Source: an uncultured Bacteroidia bacterium
Lineage (GTDB): Bacteria; Bacteroidota; Bacteroidia; Bacteroidales; F082
Assembly: GCA_902802535.1 (NCBI GenBank)
Contig: CADCML010000005.1
Coordinates: 34,610 to 98,609 of the forward strand
DNA: 64,000 bases
Direction of reading: 5' to 3'
Part shown: positions 22,566-58,234 of the stretch, piece by piece
Layout: each line of letters begins with the position of its first letter
Position numbering within the stretch: position 1 is the first letter of the stretch
Made by a program: the position numbers and the translations under genes
The notes under the pieces: generated by a model
Database searches by the model: none
What the model was told of the DNA's origin: nothing
Seen by the model: only the letters and a program-made list of their open reading frames with translations

Positions 22566-22593
22566 GTAGAGACGGTGTGCACACCGTCTCTAC
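22566..22593. repeat. 28-bp palindromic element, intergenic copy (variant core)
   Basis: A perfect 14+14 palindrome: GTAGAGACGGTGTG followed by its exact reverse complement. The outer nine bases at each end (GTAGAGACG/CGTCTCTAC) are those of the copies at 57110 and 57380, but the 10-bp core differs. It lies between tadA and the RhuM-like gene and could act as a terminator for the latter. Confidence 0.85.
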
Positions 22594-28075: not shown

Positions 28076-29416
28076 ATTAATAATCTCCTCGAAACTCCGC
28101 TCGTCCTCCAAGCCGTTCATCTTCTCCTGCTTGATGCGCGACTTGCGGCGGGCGTAGCTGTTGGTTTGCAGGTTCATCAGTATCGAAATCACTTGGTTGC
28201 TGAAGCCCTGCTTGGTGAGGCAGCAGATTTGCAGGTCGCTCTTGGTCAAGGTGGGGTACTTCTCCAGAAGCCGTCGGGTGAAGTCGCTGTACACCTTGTC
28301 GATGAGCGTCACGAAGTCGTCCCACTCGCCGTCCTTGAGGTCGAAATCCAAGGTGGAGGCGGTGATTTGCTCGGTGAGGGCGAGGGCGGTCACATACACC
28401 TTGTTTTTCTTCAGCTCTATCTCTAACTCATTCTTCCTTTCCTCGGCTTTCAGCTTGGCGCTCAGGGTTTTTTGCCGCAGCAACAACATGGTGATGGCCA
28501 ATGCGATGATCAACAAGCCAAGGAGGAGGTAAAGCCTCATACTTTTCAGCTTTTGCTCGGCTTGCAGGGTGCCTTTCTGCATCTGGAGGTCGTATTCTGC
28601 CTTGATGCGCTGCACCTGCTCGCTGCGATGCTCCTGGTCGGCCAGCATCATGTTCTCGTTGAAAAGCTCATGACATTCAAGGGCTTGCTGGTAGTCGCCT
28701 TCGAACTGATGGAGGTAGTACAGGGTTTGGTAGGCCGACATTCGGGTGCCCGCCTTGGGGCTTTGGGTGGCCTCGACGAGGTGAGGCAGGGCGAGGCTGT
28801 CTTCCTCCAAGTAATAGTAGGCCACGCCCAAGGTCAGGTGGCAGATGTCGGGTGAGGCACCGCCCGCCAAGGCTTGGCCGACGCGCTCAATGATGCCGTC
28901 GTAGTCCTCGATGACCATAAGCACGTCGCGGCTCGACTCCACGAGGATGTCGTTTTCCATCGTCTTGTCGTTCAGTGTTTTGGCGAGGGCTAAGGCTTCG
29001 TCGTAGAAAGCGTTGGCATCGTCGATGTTGCCCAACGAGGCCGCCGTGCGACCGCAATTGCGCAGGACCGTCATTAATAAGGTGTCGTTGTTGAGCACGC
29101 GGAACAGGTTGGCGGCGTCTTCGTGGAGCGGCAGGGCTTCCTCGAAGAGGCCGTGTTTCCAATACACCGCGCCAAGTTCGTCCTCGATGCGGCCTTTCAG
29201 TCGCTGCACCTCAGGTTTGTCCAAGTCGCAGCGGTTGATGGCGAGCAGGGCTTGGCTGAAGCTCTCGGCTGCCGTTTCCGAATGCTTCTCGGCGCGTTGT
29301 TCGAGGCCTTGCTGCAAGCCCGTCTCGGCCTCTTTGAGCCAGCGTGCCTTGTGTTGGCAGGCCGTGAAGCCCGCCAACAGCAGGCATGTTGTCAGTATGA
29401 TGTGTTGTTTGTTCAT
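28067..29416 (-). CDS. membrane TPR protein with C-terminal HTH, putative one-component regulator
   Basis: 449 residues. A lipoprotein-like signal (LLLAGFTACQHKA), TPR-type helical repeats (about 40-270; KHGLFEEALPLHEDAANLF, ASLGNIDDANAFYDEALALA), one TM segment (about 292-312), a charged coiled coil (KAEERKNELEIELKK) and a C-terminal helix-turn-helix like that of LuxR/GerE proteins (LTKSDLQICCLTKQGFSNQV, then NSYARRKSRIKQ). Periplasmic TPRs with a cytoplasmic HTH suggest a transmembrane one-component regulator, a known architecture in Bacteroidota. The start overlaps the stop of the upstream T9SS cargo gene by 4 nt. The last two codons lie in a repeat. Confidence 0.75.
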   Translation of the reverse strand: MNKQHIILTTCLLLAGFTACQHKARWLKEAETGLQQGLEQRAEKHSETAAESFSQALLAINRCDLDKPEVQRLKGRIEDELGAVYWKHGLFEEALPLHEDAANLFRVLNNDTLLMTVLRNCGRTAASLGNIDDANAFYDEALALAKTLNDKTMENDILVESSRDVLMVIEDYDGIIERVGQALAGGASPDICHLTLGVAYYYLEEDSLALPHLVEATQSPKAGTRMSAYQTLYYLHQFEGDYQQALECHELFNENMMLADQEHRSEQVQRIKAEYDLQMQKGTLQAEQKLKSMRLYLLLGLLIIALAITMLLLRQKTLSAKLKAEERKNELEIELKKNKVYVTALALTEQITASTLDFDLKDGEWDDFVTLIDKVYSDFTRRLLEKYPTLTKSDLQICCLTKQGFSNQVISILMNLQTNSYARRKSRIKQEKMNGLEDERSFEEIINGL

Positions 29417-31620
29417 TTTACCACAAATTTCCGTGTCCCGTCGCCCACGTTGATGAAATACATTCCCGCAGGCAAACGTGAAATGTCAATCTGCTGTTTT
29501 TCAGCGTTGATGAGGCCTGAAAGGACGGTCTGTCCCATCAGGTTGGTGATGCGGTATTCTGTTTCCACTGGTAGAGATGCACGGCCGTGCGTCTCAACGA
29601 ATAAGACGCCGTTGGCGGGATTAGGATAAACCATAAAGGCCCCTGGGCCTGTCGAAGGGCCGTTTTCTTCAAGACCATGCAATCCGTCATAAATGGCATC
29701 GCAGTCCTCGTCACCGTTATGATAGACCAAGACACCCTCCACCCAATAGCAGCGCAAGCCATCAACAGTGAAATCGCCGTTTCGGTTCATCAGTTTTTCG
29801 GGGAAGAAACTGGTGAGATGGCCGAAGTTTACCACAATATCGCCGTTGAACACATTTCCTACATCACTGATGTGCAGCTGTTTGAAGGATTCGCCGTCGT
29901 ATTCGAAGACATCCACGGCATCCACATGCACGGTGATACTCTCCGTCCCGACCTTGATTTCCCATTCGTCGCCCACGTTGGCGGCAAAGTCGTAGAGCAC
30001 GGTGAATTCCTCCAAGTCCTTGTTCCACCAATACACCTTGCCGTTTTCCTCATAGATGTATTCGCGCGTTGTTTCGGTAATCAAGTCCTTGTCGTACTGG
30101 GTGTTGCTGCGGATGATGATTTTCGGGCGTTTGCCTTCCCGGTCGAACAGCGTGTCGCCCACGCATTCGAGGTGCTGGTAGGTGATGCTGCTGTCATCAT
30201 TGAGGATTTCATAGTACCATTCGGCACATTCCATTTCAAAACCATCATAATCATAAATGTCTGTGACATGTAAAGCCCATATATTACTGCCTGAATTGGG
30301 CAGAAGCAGGTTGTTGCTGCAGTTGACCAAGCCCGAAGAAACCCCGTTGAACCAGGTATTAATGCCCACAATGGCATACTCCCCGTCGCCTACAGCAACC
30401 ACGTCCCGTATCTCTTCCCAAAGCCCCAATTGGCTGCCGATGCAGTATTCCCACAGAAGATGGCCTTCAGCATCCACATGAAACATCCAAATGTTGCCTT
30501 CATCGCTACCGATCACGCCCAAATTGGCAAAGCTCTCCACATCGCCATCCATTGATTTGGAGTTAGTGAACGCCGTGAAGCCGTTGTCTATGCTGTTGTG
30601 CAACACCTTCACCATCTTATCATTGCATGACCCACCGAATTCCTTGTCCCAAATCACATTGCCTTCGATGTCGCACTTCATCAGATAGCAGTCGTAAGTG
30701 TAGATGCCATCGCCGCAGTTTCCGTTAGGCTCTACCGTGTAGCGTTGACTGCCAGCCAACAGATACCCGTCCTCCATTTCGACGATACTGACCACTGAAG
30801 TCCTTTCGAAACAAAGATTCCATTGGATTTGCCCAAGTTCGTCAATCTTGACAAGAACCCCTTTGTTTTCGGGTTGGCCGCAGCCAATGTTGCCGTTGCC
30901 GGTTTGGTCAGAGTTTATCCACAATAGTGAACCGCCGTCTGCCGCCTCTTGAAGGCAGGTGACAATATCGTTGCCTCCTGTTCCCAGTGTGGTTTGCCAC
31001 ACGATGTTTCCTTCGGAGTCAAGTTTCACCACCCAACAGTCGTAACTGCCGAAGTGTTGGCTCACGTCACCGCTTGCCTCGTCAATGGTTGTTGCGACGA
31101 TGATGCCTCCGTCTGGGGTAGACGAGCCAAAGACATTGTTTGCACAATTATATAAGCCATGTGCTGTACCCAAGTATTTGGTCCATAGAATATTGCCGAG
31201 TTCGTCGGTTTGTATGACTCTTAAGTTGTAGTTATAGTAATAGTCAAGTCCTAACCCAGCGATGTAATATGTATCGTCGCCAGCTTTGCATAGTTTTTGG
31301 TACAGGCCGGCGCTAAAGCAATTCTGCCAATCTAGAGATTGTCCATCGTCAATTCCAACCAACCAACTGGCGACATATTGTGAGAAACCAGAATTACATT
31401 CGTACATACCGGAAGATGAATACCAATCAACCTGTCCCAAGATGGTAAAACCCGAATTGGATGGGAGTATGCTGAAGCCATAATCTGGTTCCAGACTTCC
31501 GTAGCATTGTTGCCAGTCGATGCGGACTTGTGCGTTGATTAGCATTGGCATGGCTATAGCAATCCATATTGCTGCCATTTTGTGAAGTTGTTGCGTGATT
31601 CTTTTGTGATGGTTTTTCAT
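29413..31620 (-). CDS. secreted repeat protein with T9SS sorting domain
   Basis: 735 residues. The signal peptide ends PMLINAQ. The first ~450 residues contain propeller-like strands (GSLEPDYGFSILPSNSGFTI, LDSEGNIVWQTTLGTGGND, CDIEGNVIWDKEFGGSCND) of the type seen in Bacteroidales surface proteins; a second domain follows (GKVYWWNKDLEEFTVLYDF). The T9SS type A tail is VYPNPANGVLF ... RLPAGMYFINV..KFVVK. The tail carries VETHGRASL, encoded by a copy of the 28-bp palindrome at 29571-29598. Its stop overlaps the start of the TPR regulator gene, so both come from one transcript with a promoter at 31700. Ligand unknown. Confidence 0.75.
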   Translation of the reverse strand: MKNHHKRITQQLHKMAAIWIAIAMPMLINAQVRIDWQQCYGSLEPDYGFSILPSNSGFTILGQVDWYSSSGMYECNSGFSQYVASWLVGIDDGQSLDWQNCFSAGLYQKLCKAGDDTYYIAGLGLDYYYNYNLRVIQTDELGNILWTKYLGTAHGLYNCANNVFGSSTPDGGIIVATTIDEASGDVSQHFGSYDCWVVKLDSEGNIVWQTTLGTGGNDIVTCLQEAADGGSLLWINSDQTGNGNIGCGQPENKGVLVKIDELGQIQWNLCFERTSVVSIVEMEDGYLLAGSQRYTVEPNGNCGDGIYTYDCYLMKCDIEGNVIWDKEFGGSCNDKMVKVLHNSIDNGFTAFTNSKSMDGDVESFANLGVIGSDEGNIWMFHVDAEGHLLWEYCIGSQLGLWEEIRDVVAVGDGEYAIVGINTWFNGVSSGLVNCSNNLLLPNSGSNIWALHVTDIYDYDGFEMECAEWYYEILNDDSSITYQHLECVGDTLFDREGKRPKIIIRSNTQYDKDLITETTREYIYEENGKVYWWNKDLEEFTVLYDFAANVGDEWEIKVGTESITVHVDAVDVFEYDGESFKQLHISDVGNVFNGDIVVNFGHLTSFFPEKLMNRNGDFTVDGLRCYWVEGVLVYHNGDEDCDAIYDGLHGLEENGPSTGPGAFMVYPNPANGVLFVETHGRASLPVETEYRITNLMGQTVLSGLINAEKQQIDISRLPAGMYFINVGDGTRKFVVK
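29571..29598. repeat. 28-bp palindromic element inside a coding sequence (T9SS tail)
   Basis: 26 of 28 positions match the copies at 57110 and 57380. It is read on the minus strand as VETHGRASL, in the same phase as those copies. Confidence 0.85.
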
Positions 31621-31861: not shown

Positions 31862-31889
31862 GTAGAGACGTGCCATGGCGTGTCTTTAC
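31862..31889. repeat. 28-bp palindromic element, decayed intergenic copy
   Basis: Starts GTAGAGACGTGCCA; the right half differs from the perfect complement at three positions, all transitions, as expected of an old copy. The core TGCCATGGC differs from those of the other copies. Confidence 0.7.
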
Positions 31890-56864: not shown

Positions 56865-56873
56865 CACGCTTTG

Positions 56874-56961
56874 CGTCACTGCGAGGAACGAAGCAGTCCA
56901 GAGAACCAATCATACAACGCTTGTCCGCTGGATTGCTTCGTCGTTTCTCCTCGCAATGACG
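56874..56961. repeat. intergenic inverted repeat (CGTCAYTGCGAGGA type)
   Basis: The left arm CGTCACTGCGAGGAACGAAG with CAGTCCAG (56874-56901) is mirrored by CTGGATTGCTTCGTCG...CCTCGCAATGACG (56928-56961), with a small insertion in the right arm. Repeats of this consensus are familiar from many unrelated bacterial genomes. It ends 22 nt before the start of the isomerase-like gene and so lies in its leader. Confidence 0.7.
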
Positions 56962-56983
56962 GCACACATTCAAAAACTATCCC

Positions 56984-58234
56984 ATGAAAATAATTATCCT
57001 TCGTTCCTCTTTCCAGACGGATGATTTCGTCAGGACGGAATATGCTGAATTGCTGCAAAGGCTTGAAAAGGAATGCTGTGCAGAAATCCATATCATTGGT
57101 GACGAATCTGTAGAGACGCACGGCCGTGCGTCTCTACAAACGTTGCCCGACGCGGTGATGATTGCCACCGGCGGCGTGGAAAACCTGTTCAAACGCATCT
57201 GGGAGGCCATCGACGTGGAAATGATGTGTTCGCCGTTTGGCCATAAATCCGTCACAATGATTGCCGACGGGCGCAACAATTCCTTGGCTGCCGCCTTGGA
57301 AATATTGACCTATTTGGGCAACAACGGCATGGAGGGGCGCATCGTGCATGGGACGAATGATGAAATTGTTTCGGCCATCGTAGAGACGCACGGCCGTGCG
57401 TCTCTACGAGGACGAATCGGGTTGTTCGGCCAGCCATCGGACTGGCTGATTGCCAGCGGCGTGAACCGCGATTTCCTCCGCCAACGCTATTGCGTTGAAA
57501 CCATCGACATCGACCTGAAACGCCTCATCGACGGCATCAAAACCATTCCTCAAACCGAGGCTGTGAAGGTAGCACAAAACATGGTGAAACGCGCCAAGGC
57601 CGTCAAGGAGCCGACTTGCGCCGACATGCTGGAAGCCGTCAAGGCCTATCTTGCCATCAAAAAGATTTGTCAGGAAGAACGTTTGGATGCCTTCACCATC
57701 CGCTGCTTCGACATTGTGAAGGCCTGTGGCACAACGAGTTGTTTGGCATTGGCTCTGCTCAACGACGAAGGCATCGTGGCTGGCTGCGAGGGCGATATGC
57801 AAACGCTGATGAGCATGTTTTTGGCCAAGCGGATTTGTGGCGAAACGGCCTTCATGGCCAATCCGTCGCAACTCACCGACAAGAGTTCCATGCTGGCGCA
57901 TTGCACCATCCCGCTCTCGATGTGCGACGAAACCATCGTCCGCTCGCATTTCGAGTCGGGCATTGGGGTGGCCGTTCAGGGTTTGTTGCCTTTGGCCGAC
58001 TACACCTTATTTAAATGGGGCGGCCCGCAGTTGGACCGTTATTTCGTCGCCGAGGCGCAAGCCGTCGAAACGCCCTACAGCGACCATTTCTGCCGCACGC
58101 AAATCACGCTCAACGTGAACCTGAAGCCTTACCTGCTGCAACACAGCATCGGCAACCACCACGTCATCATCTGTGGGCGGCACGCCAGTGAAATCCGCCG
58201 ATTCATGCAGGCCAACGGCATTCAGAACGTGTAA
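56984..58234 (+). CDS. L-fucose/L-arabinose isomerase-like protein carrying two translated palindromic elements
   Basis: 416 residues. The C-terminal half has the FucI/AraA-type features IVAGCEGDMQTLMSMFLAKR (metal-binding Glu), then AFMANPSQLTD and LAHCTIPLSM (His ligand). The N-terminal half is Rossmann-like (ADGRNNSLAAALEILTYLG). This group in Bacteroidota has no assigned substrate to my knowledge; sugar isomerase activity is inference. Two stretches reading VETHGRASL (residues ~43-51 and ~133-141) are encoded exactly by 28-bp palindromes at 57110 and 57380 and interrupt otherwise normal sequence. The open frame is intact. It overlaps the convergent patatin gene by 13 nt. Confidence 0.72.
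   Translation: MKIIILRSSFQTDDFVRTEYAELLQRLEKECCAEIHIIGDESVETHGRASLQTLPDAVMIATGGVENLFKRIWEAIDVEMMCSPFGHKSVTMIADGRNNSLAAALEILTYLGNNGMEGRIVHGTNDEIVSAIVETHGRASLRGRIGLFGQPSDWLIASGVNRDFLRQRYCVETIDIDLKRLIDGIKTIPQTEAVKVAQNMVKRAKAVKEPTCADMLEAVKAYLAIKKICQEERLDAFTIRCFDIVKACGTTSCLALALLNDEGIVAGCEGDMQTLMSMFLAKRICGETAFMANPSQLTDKSSMLAHCTIPLSMCDETIVRSHFESGIGVAVQGLLPLADYTLFKWGGPQLDRYFVAEAQAVETPYSDHFCRTQITLNVNLKPYLLQHSIGNHHVIICGRHASEIRRFMQANGIQNV
57110..57137. repeat. 28-bp palindromic element inside the isomerase-like gene, copy 1
   Basis: A perfect 14+14 palindrome starting GTAGAGACGCACGG. Translated as VETHGRASL within ESVETHGRASLQT. Confidence 0.92.
57380..57407. repeat. 28-bp palindromic element inside the isomerase-like gene, copy 2
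   Basis: Identical in all 28 bases to the copy at 57110 and read in the same phase, within AIVETHGRASLRG. Confidence 0.92.

Follow-up and report, generated by a model that had tools for sequence, protein, structure and literature searches.

Double-foot GTAG REP elements read in frame in Bacteroidales genes and the probable exchange of their centres at orthologous sites

The stretch of DNA analysed here (the window) comprises 64,000 nucleotides from an uncultured Bacteroidia bacterium of the Bacteroidales lineage F082 (assembly GCA_902802535.1, contig CADCML010000005.1, positions 34,610 to 98,609), and it contains five 28-bp palindromes which had been listed in a first-pass annotation and which all proved to be real, three having exact arms and two having two arm mismatches each. 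Two of the exact copies (57110..57137 and 57380..57407) lie in loops 1 and 2, respectively, of one isomerase-like gene coding for 416 amino acids (56984-58234, + strand), share the centre CACGGCCGTG, are identical in all 28 bases as had been stated before, and are both translated as VETHGRASL. The same centre is found in the copy at 29571..29598, which has two arm mismatches and is read, again as VETHGRASL, on the minus strand in the T9SS sorting tail of a 735-residue protein (29413-31620, - strand). The other two palindromes reside outside long open reading frames (ORFs): the exact copy at 22566..22593 has the centre GTGTGCACAC, the commonest centre type among the copies in the window's genome, and the copy at 31862..31889 has the centre TGCCATGGCG and two arm mismatches. 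The exact pattern GTAGAGACG-N(4,16)-CGTCTCTAC has three matches in the window (22566, 57110 and 57380) versus none in 100 dinucleotide shuffles, and folding of the single-stranded DNA yields z-scores of -6.3, -6.0 and -7.1 for the exact copies and of only -2.2 and -1.5 for the imperfect ones. A pattern search of the whole genome (3.7 Mb, 85% complete), which had been named beforehand as a test, excluded the absence of further copies, as it returned 19 exact copies and 51 at up to three mismatches, compared to 0 and 3, respectively, for the reversed control pattern.

With respect to the carrier genes, the 416-residue protein has an arabinose/fucose-isomerase fold, the best matches of Foldseek against the PDB being L-arabinose isomerases (E = 6e-20), with L-fucose isomerase at E = 7.7e-15; the NCBIfam model for sulfoquinovose isomerase matches with E = 2e-13 and 49.9 bits, far under its cut-off of 700, and a Pfam scan gave no match. 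In the AlphaFold model of the isomerase the first insert (residues 43-51) covers residues 45-50, one of two stretches with a pLDDT below 50, while the other such stretch (78-87) is the loop that holds a third element in the orthologues of genomes G002 and G003; the second insert (133-141) falls within a block of mean pLDDT 63. Directly upstream of the gene, at 56870-56965, there is also a longer imperfect inverted repeat (CACTGCGAGGAACGAAGCAGTCCAG ... CTGGATTGCTTCGTCGTTTCTCCTCGCAATGACG) resembling another dispersed repeat. The 735-residue protein is a T9SS cargo protein with a Por_Secre_tail domain (PF18962, residues 664-733) that holds the 29571 copy. A REP lies at the same point, after PNPTNG, PNPTDG or PNPANG, in the T9SS-tail-like sequences of at least seven proteins (L001, L002, L011, L015, L288, L292 and the window protein at 29571), the identity of these tails having been established by Pfam for the window protein alone, and copying of the tail by recombination may have multiplied these REP copies. 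Other carriers in the window's genome, named by reading their sequences, are XerD, a U32 peptidase, an MBOAT acyltransferase, a DMT transporter and a Vsr-like protein.

Among 35 copies with at most two arm mismatches that were retrieved from the window's genome, 23 lie in long ORFs and 12 outside. Amongst the genic copies, 15 are read in the VET phase and 8 in the third phase (RD..VST), and none in the phase that begins with TAG; several of the VET copies are not independent, as they share a position in T9SS tails that are related to each other. The earlier observation that the genic copies are all read in the VETHGRASL phase thus holds for the three in the window (29571, 57110 and 57380), but it does not extend to the genome, in which two phases are used, and the single phase in the window is explained by small numbers.

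In general, the 9-bp arms of the element, GTAGAGACG and CGTCTCTAC, are fixed, whereas the centre of 10 bp between them varies, is mostly self-complementary and occurs in discrete types, the commonest centres in the genus being GTGTGCACAC, TGCCATGGCG, TAGCGCGCTA, CACGGCCGTG and CAAAATTTTG. The arms hold a GTAG foot at both ends, such that a 5' GT[AG]G and a 3' C[TC]AC bound a long hairpin, as in double-foot REPs. Fully self-complementary centres were found in 45 of 106 viral-contig copies, in 100 of 146 copies from named genomes (among the matches listed) and in 66 of 111 genus copies, the latter as compared to 9.5 after reshuffling of the halves, so that the two halves of a centre belong together. 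Of the 36 genomes of the genus, 35 contain the exact-arm pattern, with up to 67 copies, as do 8 of 24 further genomes in the order. Scans gave 109 stretches in IMG/VR and at least 118 in named species genomes, the latter coming, among the matches listed, from Bacteroidota, Cyanobacteria, Chloroflexi, Spirochaetales, Desulfuromonas and Desulfamplus as well as Zixibacteria, Cloacimonadota, Acidobacteria, Planctomycetaceae, Parcubacteria and others. The small dispersed repeats of the cyanobacterium Nostoc, reportedly described by Elhai and colleagues in 2008, are likewise said to be mobile hairpins of very small size that show compensatory changes, the likeness being one of description only. Doublets of elements 44-49 bp apart with different centres, similar to REPIN pairs, were observed in G016 (C6:94545/94589 and C69:16749/16794) and at L304 and L305.

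The search for a RAYT-type transposase suggested by the first-pass annotation revealed that such a gene exists in relatives and is tightly linked to the element. At least six genes in named genomes carry the palindrome internally, five of the six also adjoining it, and the NCBIfam model for REP-associated tyrosine transposases is the only match for all six proteins, one of them scoring over the cut-off. The best PDB match of an AlphaFold model of the RAYT from 19 relatives is 4er8, a RAYT bound to its REP hairpin (E = 1.2e-6). In alignments of 6 and of 19 proteins, H90, H92, Q170, Y190 and N194 are invariant, N89 is sometimes D and the last P is often V, and the motifs NH[IFV]H, WQ and YIxNNP together with the RAYT fold are those of subclass 2.4. 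The internal element is located in frame just past the HUH motif, i.e., between HuH and Y, in a loop (102-139) that is a low-confidence stretch of the model, and some ORFs hold another one near the N-terminus.

When the RAYT family was searched in the genus and the order, 53 loci were read and 47 ORFs taken, leaving out six loci without a qualifying ORF (L325, L328, L329, L348, L349 and L351, of which L328 does hold an internal element). An internal element is present in 33 of the 47 ORFs at up to four arm mismatches and in 31 at up to three, that of L326 probably being a chance match; without the six loci that had been found via the element itself, the fractions are 27/41 and 25/41, respectively. 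Both internal and flanking elements occur in 25 of the 47 ORFs, and in all 25 of these a centre type is common to the inside and the flank, types being assigned as the nearest in a list that was compiled after these loci had been viewed; L303, L136 and L160 have an additional second centre type in the flank. This agreement at 25 of 25 loci suggests that the centre could be taken as a natural readout of RAYT specificity. In line with this, 12 centre types on 31 labelled rows of a RAYT core tree from which the loop had been removed require 12 changes, the minimum possible being 11, whereas shuffled labels require 22.0 on average and at least 19 in 300 trials; 19 of the 43 inner branches of this tree are weak.

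Also, the genomes of the genus with a RAYT-family match have a median of 9.1 exact copies per Mb (25 genomes) versus 2.0 in those without (11 genomes; one-sided p = 0.0026), a p value that is optimistic because the genomes are related, and a comparison in which some of the RAYT-family matches are weak or to other proteins. Ten of the 11 genomes without a match (of 36 in total) still have 1-25 copies. Around the three RAYT-family matches of the window's genome (C47, C17 and C60), the 4.5-5 kb read, extending about 2 kb to either side, contain no element at up to four arm mismatches, and a RAYT with linkage to the commonest centre of this genome was not found in the 85% of it that is covered. 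When, for each genome, RAYT types were set by eye against the centre that predominates among the dispersed copies, no linked RAYT was found for GTGTGCACAC in G000 and for TAGCGCGCTA in G016.

The general Y1 family PF01797 was considered as a mobiliser and rejected, as none of 15 loci (5 own, 10 of the family) holds the palindrome at up to four arm mismatches; on four of the right RAYTs, PF01797 gives no match in two cases, a match over the cut-off in one and a match under it in one. In the window's genome PF01797 identifies five IS200-like Y1 proteins (L283-L287, on G000 contigs 2, 20, 10, 4 and 25). At least L283, L286 and L287 have their own inverted repeats on both sides of the gene, and some of the five proteins contain the YxxNQxEHH motif of subclass 1.2, which in the available part of PMC6006769 is described as generally having no typical terminal structures.

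Comparing occupied with element-free orthologues of four carrier genes, it is evident that the element plus two edge bases replaces native loop codons at a net gain of 9 to 15 nt, as counted by hand on codon rows of diverged orthologues. The net gain is 12 nt in XerD (three filled, eight empty), 15 nt in loop 1 of U32, 15 nt in DMT and 9, 12 and 15 nt in MBOAT. The idea that extra bases from the target bring the 28 bp of the element up to 30 is at odds with this loss of native loop codons. Different, larger inserts occupy the U32 loop in two other species and the DMT loop in three. The native sequence at the right edge in XerD and U32 is by itself similar to the CTCTACA end of the element, which might be a lead for microhomology. 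As to insertion into the loops of pre-existing hairpins, flanking inverted repeats with a stem of at least 6 bp accompany 9 of 110 genus copies versus 2.8 expected, the maximum of 500 permutations also being 9, and since the excess is modest in two of the three sets of copies and little in the viral set, this was rejected as a general rule.

The centres, in turn, differ between orthologous sites. Of 25 isomerase orthologues from the genus, an element with at most three arm mismatches is present in loop 1 of 13 (8 centre clusters) and in loop 2 of 14 (7 centre clusters), loop 2 and the middle loop of distant species being the same loop and not always the same base. A further set of 19 sites anchored in genome G016 was traced in four sister genomes; these sites, genic and intergenic ones unsorted, were mostly picked for carrying the commonest centre of G016, a selection that favours differences. 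Of the 54 rows obtained, three were duplicates, leaving 51 site-genome comparisons, in 15 of which a GTAGAGACG element lies in the same place, 11 of them with a different centre and 4 with the same centre or a one-base variant. In the remaining 36 comparisons the place is taken by other sequence, which in several cases is a different hairpin repeat. No clean empty site bearing a target duplication of the MITE kind was found, either in the carrier genes or in these 51 comparisons, none of which shows a clean empty site of any kind; L428 in G031 has a net difference of -2 nt, but its bases differ. At L423, L430-L434, L436 and L438, those sisters amongst G021, G031, G018 and G000 that lack the GTAGAGACG element often hold another hairpin-like repeat (GTAGGGCTGTCA.., GTAGGGACAC.., CTATGGCC.., GACTGCGGGAC.. 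or CACGCAGAATCC..), as if such spots were common parking places of several repeat families.

Eight coding sites and those G016 sites that have at least two occupied genomes, with elements at no more than three arm mismatches, together give 17 orthologous sites and 228 genome pairs. Of these pairs, 39 differ at 0-2 centre bases, 4 at three and 185 at 4-10, a bimodal distribution in which the two isomerase loops contribute most pairs and in which the pairs from any one site, having a common history, are not independent; at 13 of the 17 sites there are at least two centre clusters. Dropped from these counts were isomerase loop 1 in G004 and G011 and loop 2 in G018 and G026, single five-mismatch matches in G005 and G010, L435 in G018 and L429 in G021 (altered arms), and an element at U32 residue 22 seen in a single genome. 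Ten of the 19 G016 sites are outside the 17: L421 and L427, which had no sister sequence, and L420, L422, L423, L430-L433 and L436, which had no co-occupied GTAGAGACG element. In the isomerase orthologues of G026 (L038) and G018 (L022), the arms are altered in step on both sides (GTAGGGACG/CGTCCCTAC and GTAGAGAGT/ACTCTCTAC, respectively), and arm types may therefore be exchanged as well.

The closest pair of genomes, G016 and G021, whose DNA is 82-97% identical at the five loci compared, shares 11 co-occupied sites, of which 6 differ at five or more of the ten centre bases and 5 at none or one. In isomerase loop 2 of this pair, 7 of 10 centre bases differ while both flanks are identical (12/12 and 12/12), and at L434/L464 and L435/L455 the centre differs at 6 of 10 bases between flanks of 12/12 and 11/12. 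Some swapped sites are out of register, with flank identities of 12/12 and 5/12 at L419 and of 6/12 and 5/12 at L438. Taken from one genome per species, many of them incomplete metagenome bins, and at sites that come from few genomes and are non-random, the bimodal differences together with the unchanged flanks in the best cases suggest that centres are replaced as whole blocks, coding loops included. The palindromes are therefore quite probably double-foot GTAG REPs spread by RAYTs (TnpA-REP subclass 2.4, corresponding to RAYT group 4) whose centres are exchanged in place, and judging from the sequence comparisons the RAYT would be the candidate agent of this exchange.

The main rival explanation, which we regard as rather unlikely, assumes hot-spot re-insertion, with some loops and intergenic positions as favoured targets, from which the element is lost precisely and where a member of another type then inserts independently at the same base. 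Consistent with this are a weak edge preference (of 110 genus copies, 56 have T at -1 and 75 have A at +1), the reuse of spots as indicated by other GTAG-footed hairpins in the same place in some sisters (L430 and L436), and the one edge that is out of register at some swapped sites. However, no common target sequence is seen beyond the edge bases, flanking inverted repeats are only modestly in excess (9/110, see above), a clean empty site was found in none of the 51 comparisons, and in the best cases both flanks are identical or nearly so. Drift with repair, by which point mutations in one half of the centre would be copied to the other half by template switching within the hairpin, is improbable as the general explanation. 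Such steps do exist, as TACGGCCGTA is found beside CACGGCCGTG in one gene, and 47 of 54 mismatched centre pairs in the genus set are of the G.T/A.C kind; against it stand the bimodal differences, with just 4 of the 228 pairs differing at three bases as against 185 that differ at four or more, and the recurrence of the same discrete types across many genomes and phyla.

It is far less probable still that the elements belong to a family like the Rickettsia palindromic elements (RPE) of the CGTC superfamily and have spread in the absence of a transposase. In the available text of Di Nocera et al. (2013; PMC3733652), REPs within genes are reported, and RPE-4 and RPE-6 are assigned to the CGTC repeats, a superfamily without a linked transposase. 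RPE-4 and RPE-6 are similar to the present elements in being short palindromes inserted in frame in many unrelated genes, but they have a CGTC foot, unpaired in that superfamily, and no transposase linkage, whereas here GTAG and CTAC are paired at both ends and RAYT genes have matching internal and flanking copies; the kinship with Rickettsia palindromic elements proposed previously was thus rejected on the feet and on the linked transposase. That the peptide reflects protein homology or a functional motif, with the DNA palindrome being incidental, is hardly tenable even though the peptide recurs in unrelated proteins, since two phases are used, copies exist outside long ORFs and the changes track the DNA type, all of which bears out the original view of a dispersed, spreading palindrome.

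The reading as double-foot REPs of RAYTs also has precedents, as subclass 2.4 is reported from Cyanobacteria and Bacteroidetes by Quentin et al. (2018; PMC6006769), who in the part of the paper available describe double-foot REPs and their in-frame occurrence within the tnpA-REP gene between HuH and Y. The features given there for subclass 2.4 agree with those found here, namely a 5' GTAG with its 3' complement, HUH-Y proteins with NHxH, WQ and YIxNNP, and REPs around and inside the gene. The remark of the first-pass annotation that it knew of no description of this family in Bacteroidales is thus superseded, and the same text already covers the element family, its occurrence in Bacteroidetes and the copies inserted in frame in the transposase gene that belongs to it. 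Beyond what that text contains are the association of centre types with RAYT clades, the dispersed in-frame copies in ordinary genes and the exchange of centres at orthologous sites. The GTAG REPs of Di Nocera et al. (PMC3733652) are alike in being GTAG-tagged hairpins that are associated with RAYTs and translated in unrelated genes, but they carry GTAG as an unpaired tag on a single side, while here it is paired at both ends; the available text of that paper places Bacteroidetes under CGTC repeats and not under GTAG, and reports no exchange at fixed sites. In the REP orthoswitch of Nunvar et al. (2013; PMC3686654), orthologous RAYT loci are flanked by different REP classes and, according to the portion available, old dispersed REPs are assumed to stay and decay; the switch there is one at the RAYT locus, whereas here dispersed copies change type in place. 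A search of mainly openly accessible literature found no description of in-place REP replacement, including in the available parts of PMC6006769, PMC8266576, PMC3686654 and PMC3116915; amongst the matches listed for the literal string GTAGAGACG in literature text, none concerns bacterial REP elements. Accordingly, the turnover of centres at fixed sites is the part for which no description was found.

With respect to the mechanism, other RAYT groups bind the REP as a folded single strand, require the GTAG foot and pick the cleavage dinucleotide through it, as described in the available sections of PMC8266576. By analogy, the RAYT of the present family would act on a folded single strand, for which the common feet would serve as guide and cleavage sites, while the centre would decide which RAYT copies the element. 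Because the feet are common to all types, a copy from the currently active RAYT could be joined into, or annealed onto, an existing element, either through cleavage and joining by the RAYT or through annealing of a released single strand, so that the old centre would be overwritten and no new site would be needed. The founding of a new site would be a less frequent event, taking place in loops that can accommodate some ten residues, and would cost the native codons at that position. We tentatively propose, as a possibility with somewhat less than even chances, a RAYT-driven cassette exchange by which this 28-bp element may spread for the most part by replacing related elements where these are already established, with the feet as docking handles and the centre as a specificity tag, such that a conserved loop would receive a new core of 3-4 residues with each sweep of a RAYT type.

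How REPs spread is poorly understood, as stated in the available text of PMC8266576. If established copies are indeed overwritten in place, the map of sites in a genome can persist while the REP type changes, and this would explain how large REP populations exist without constant damage to genes. Ordinary proteins would then also have short loops rewritten in frame, time and again, by a mobile element.
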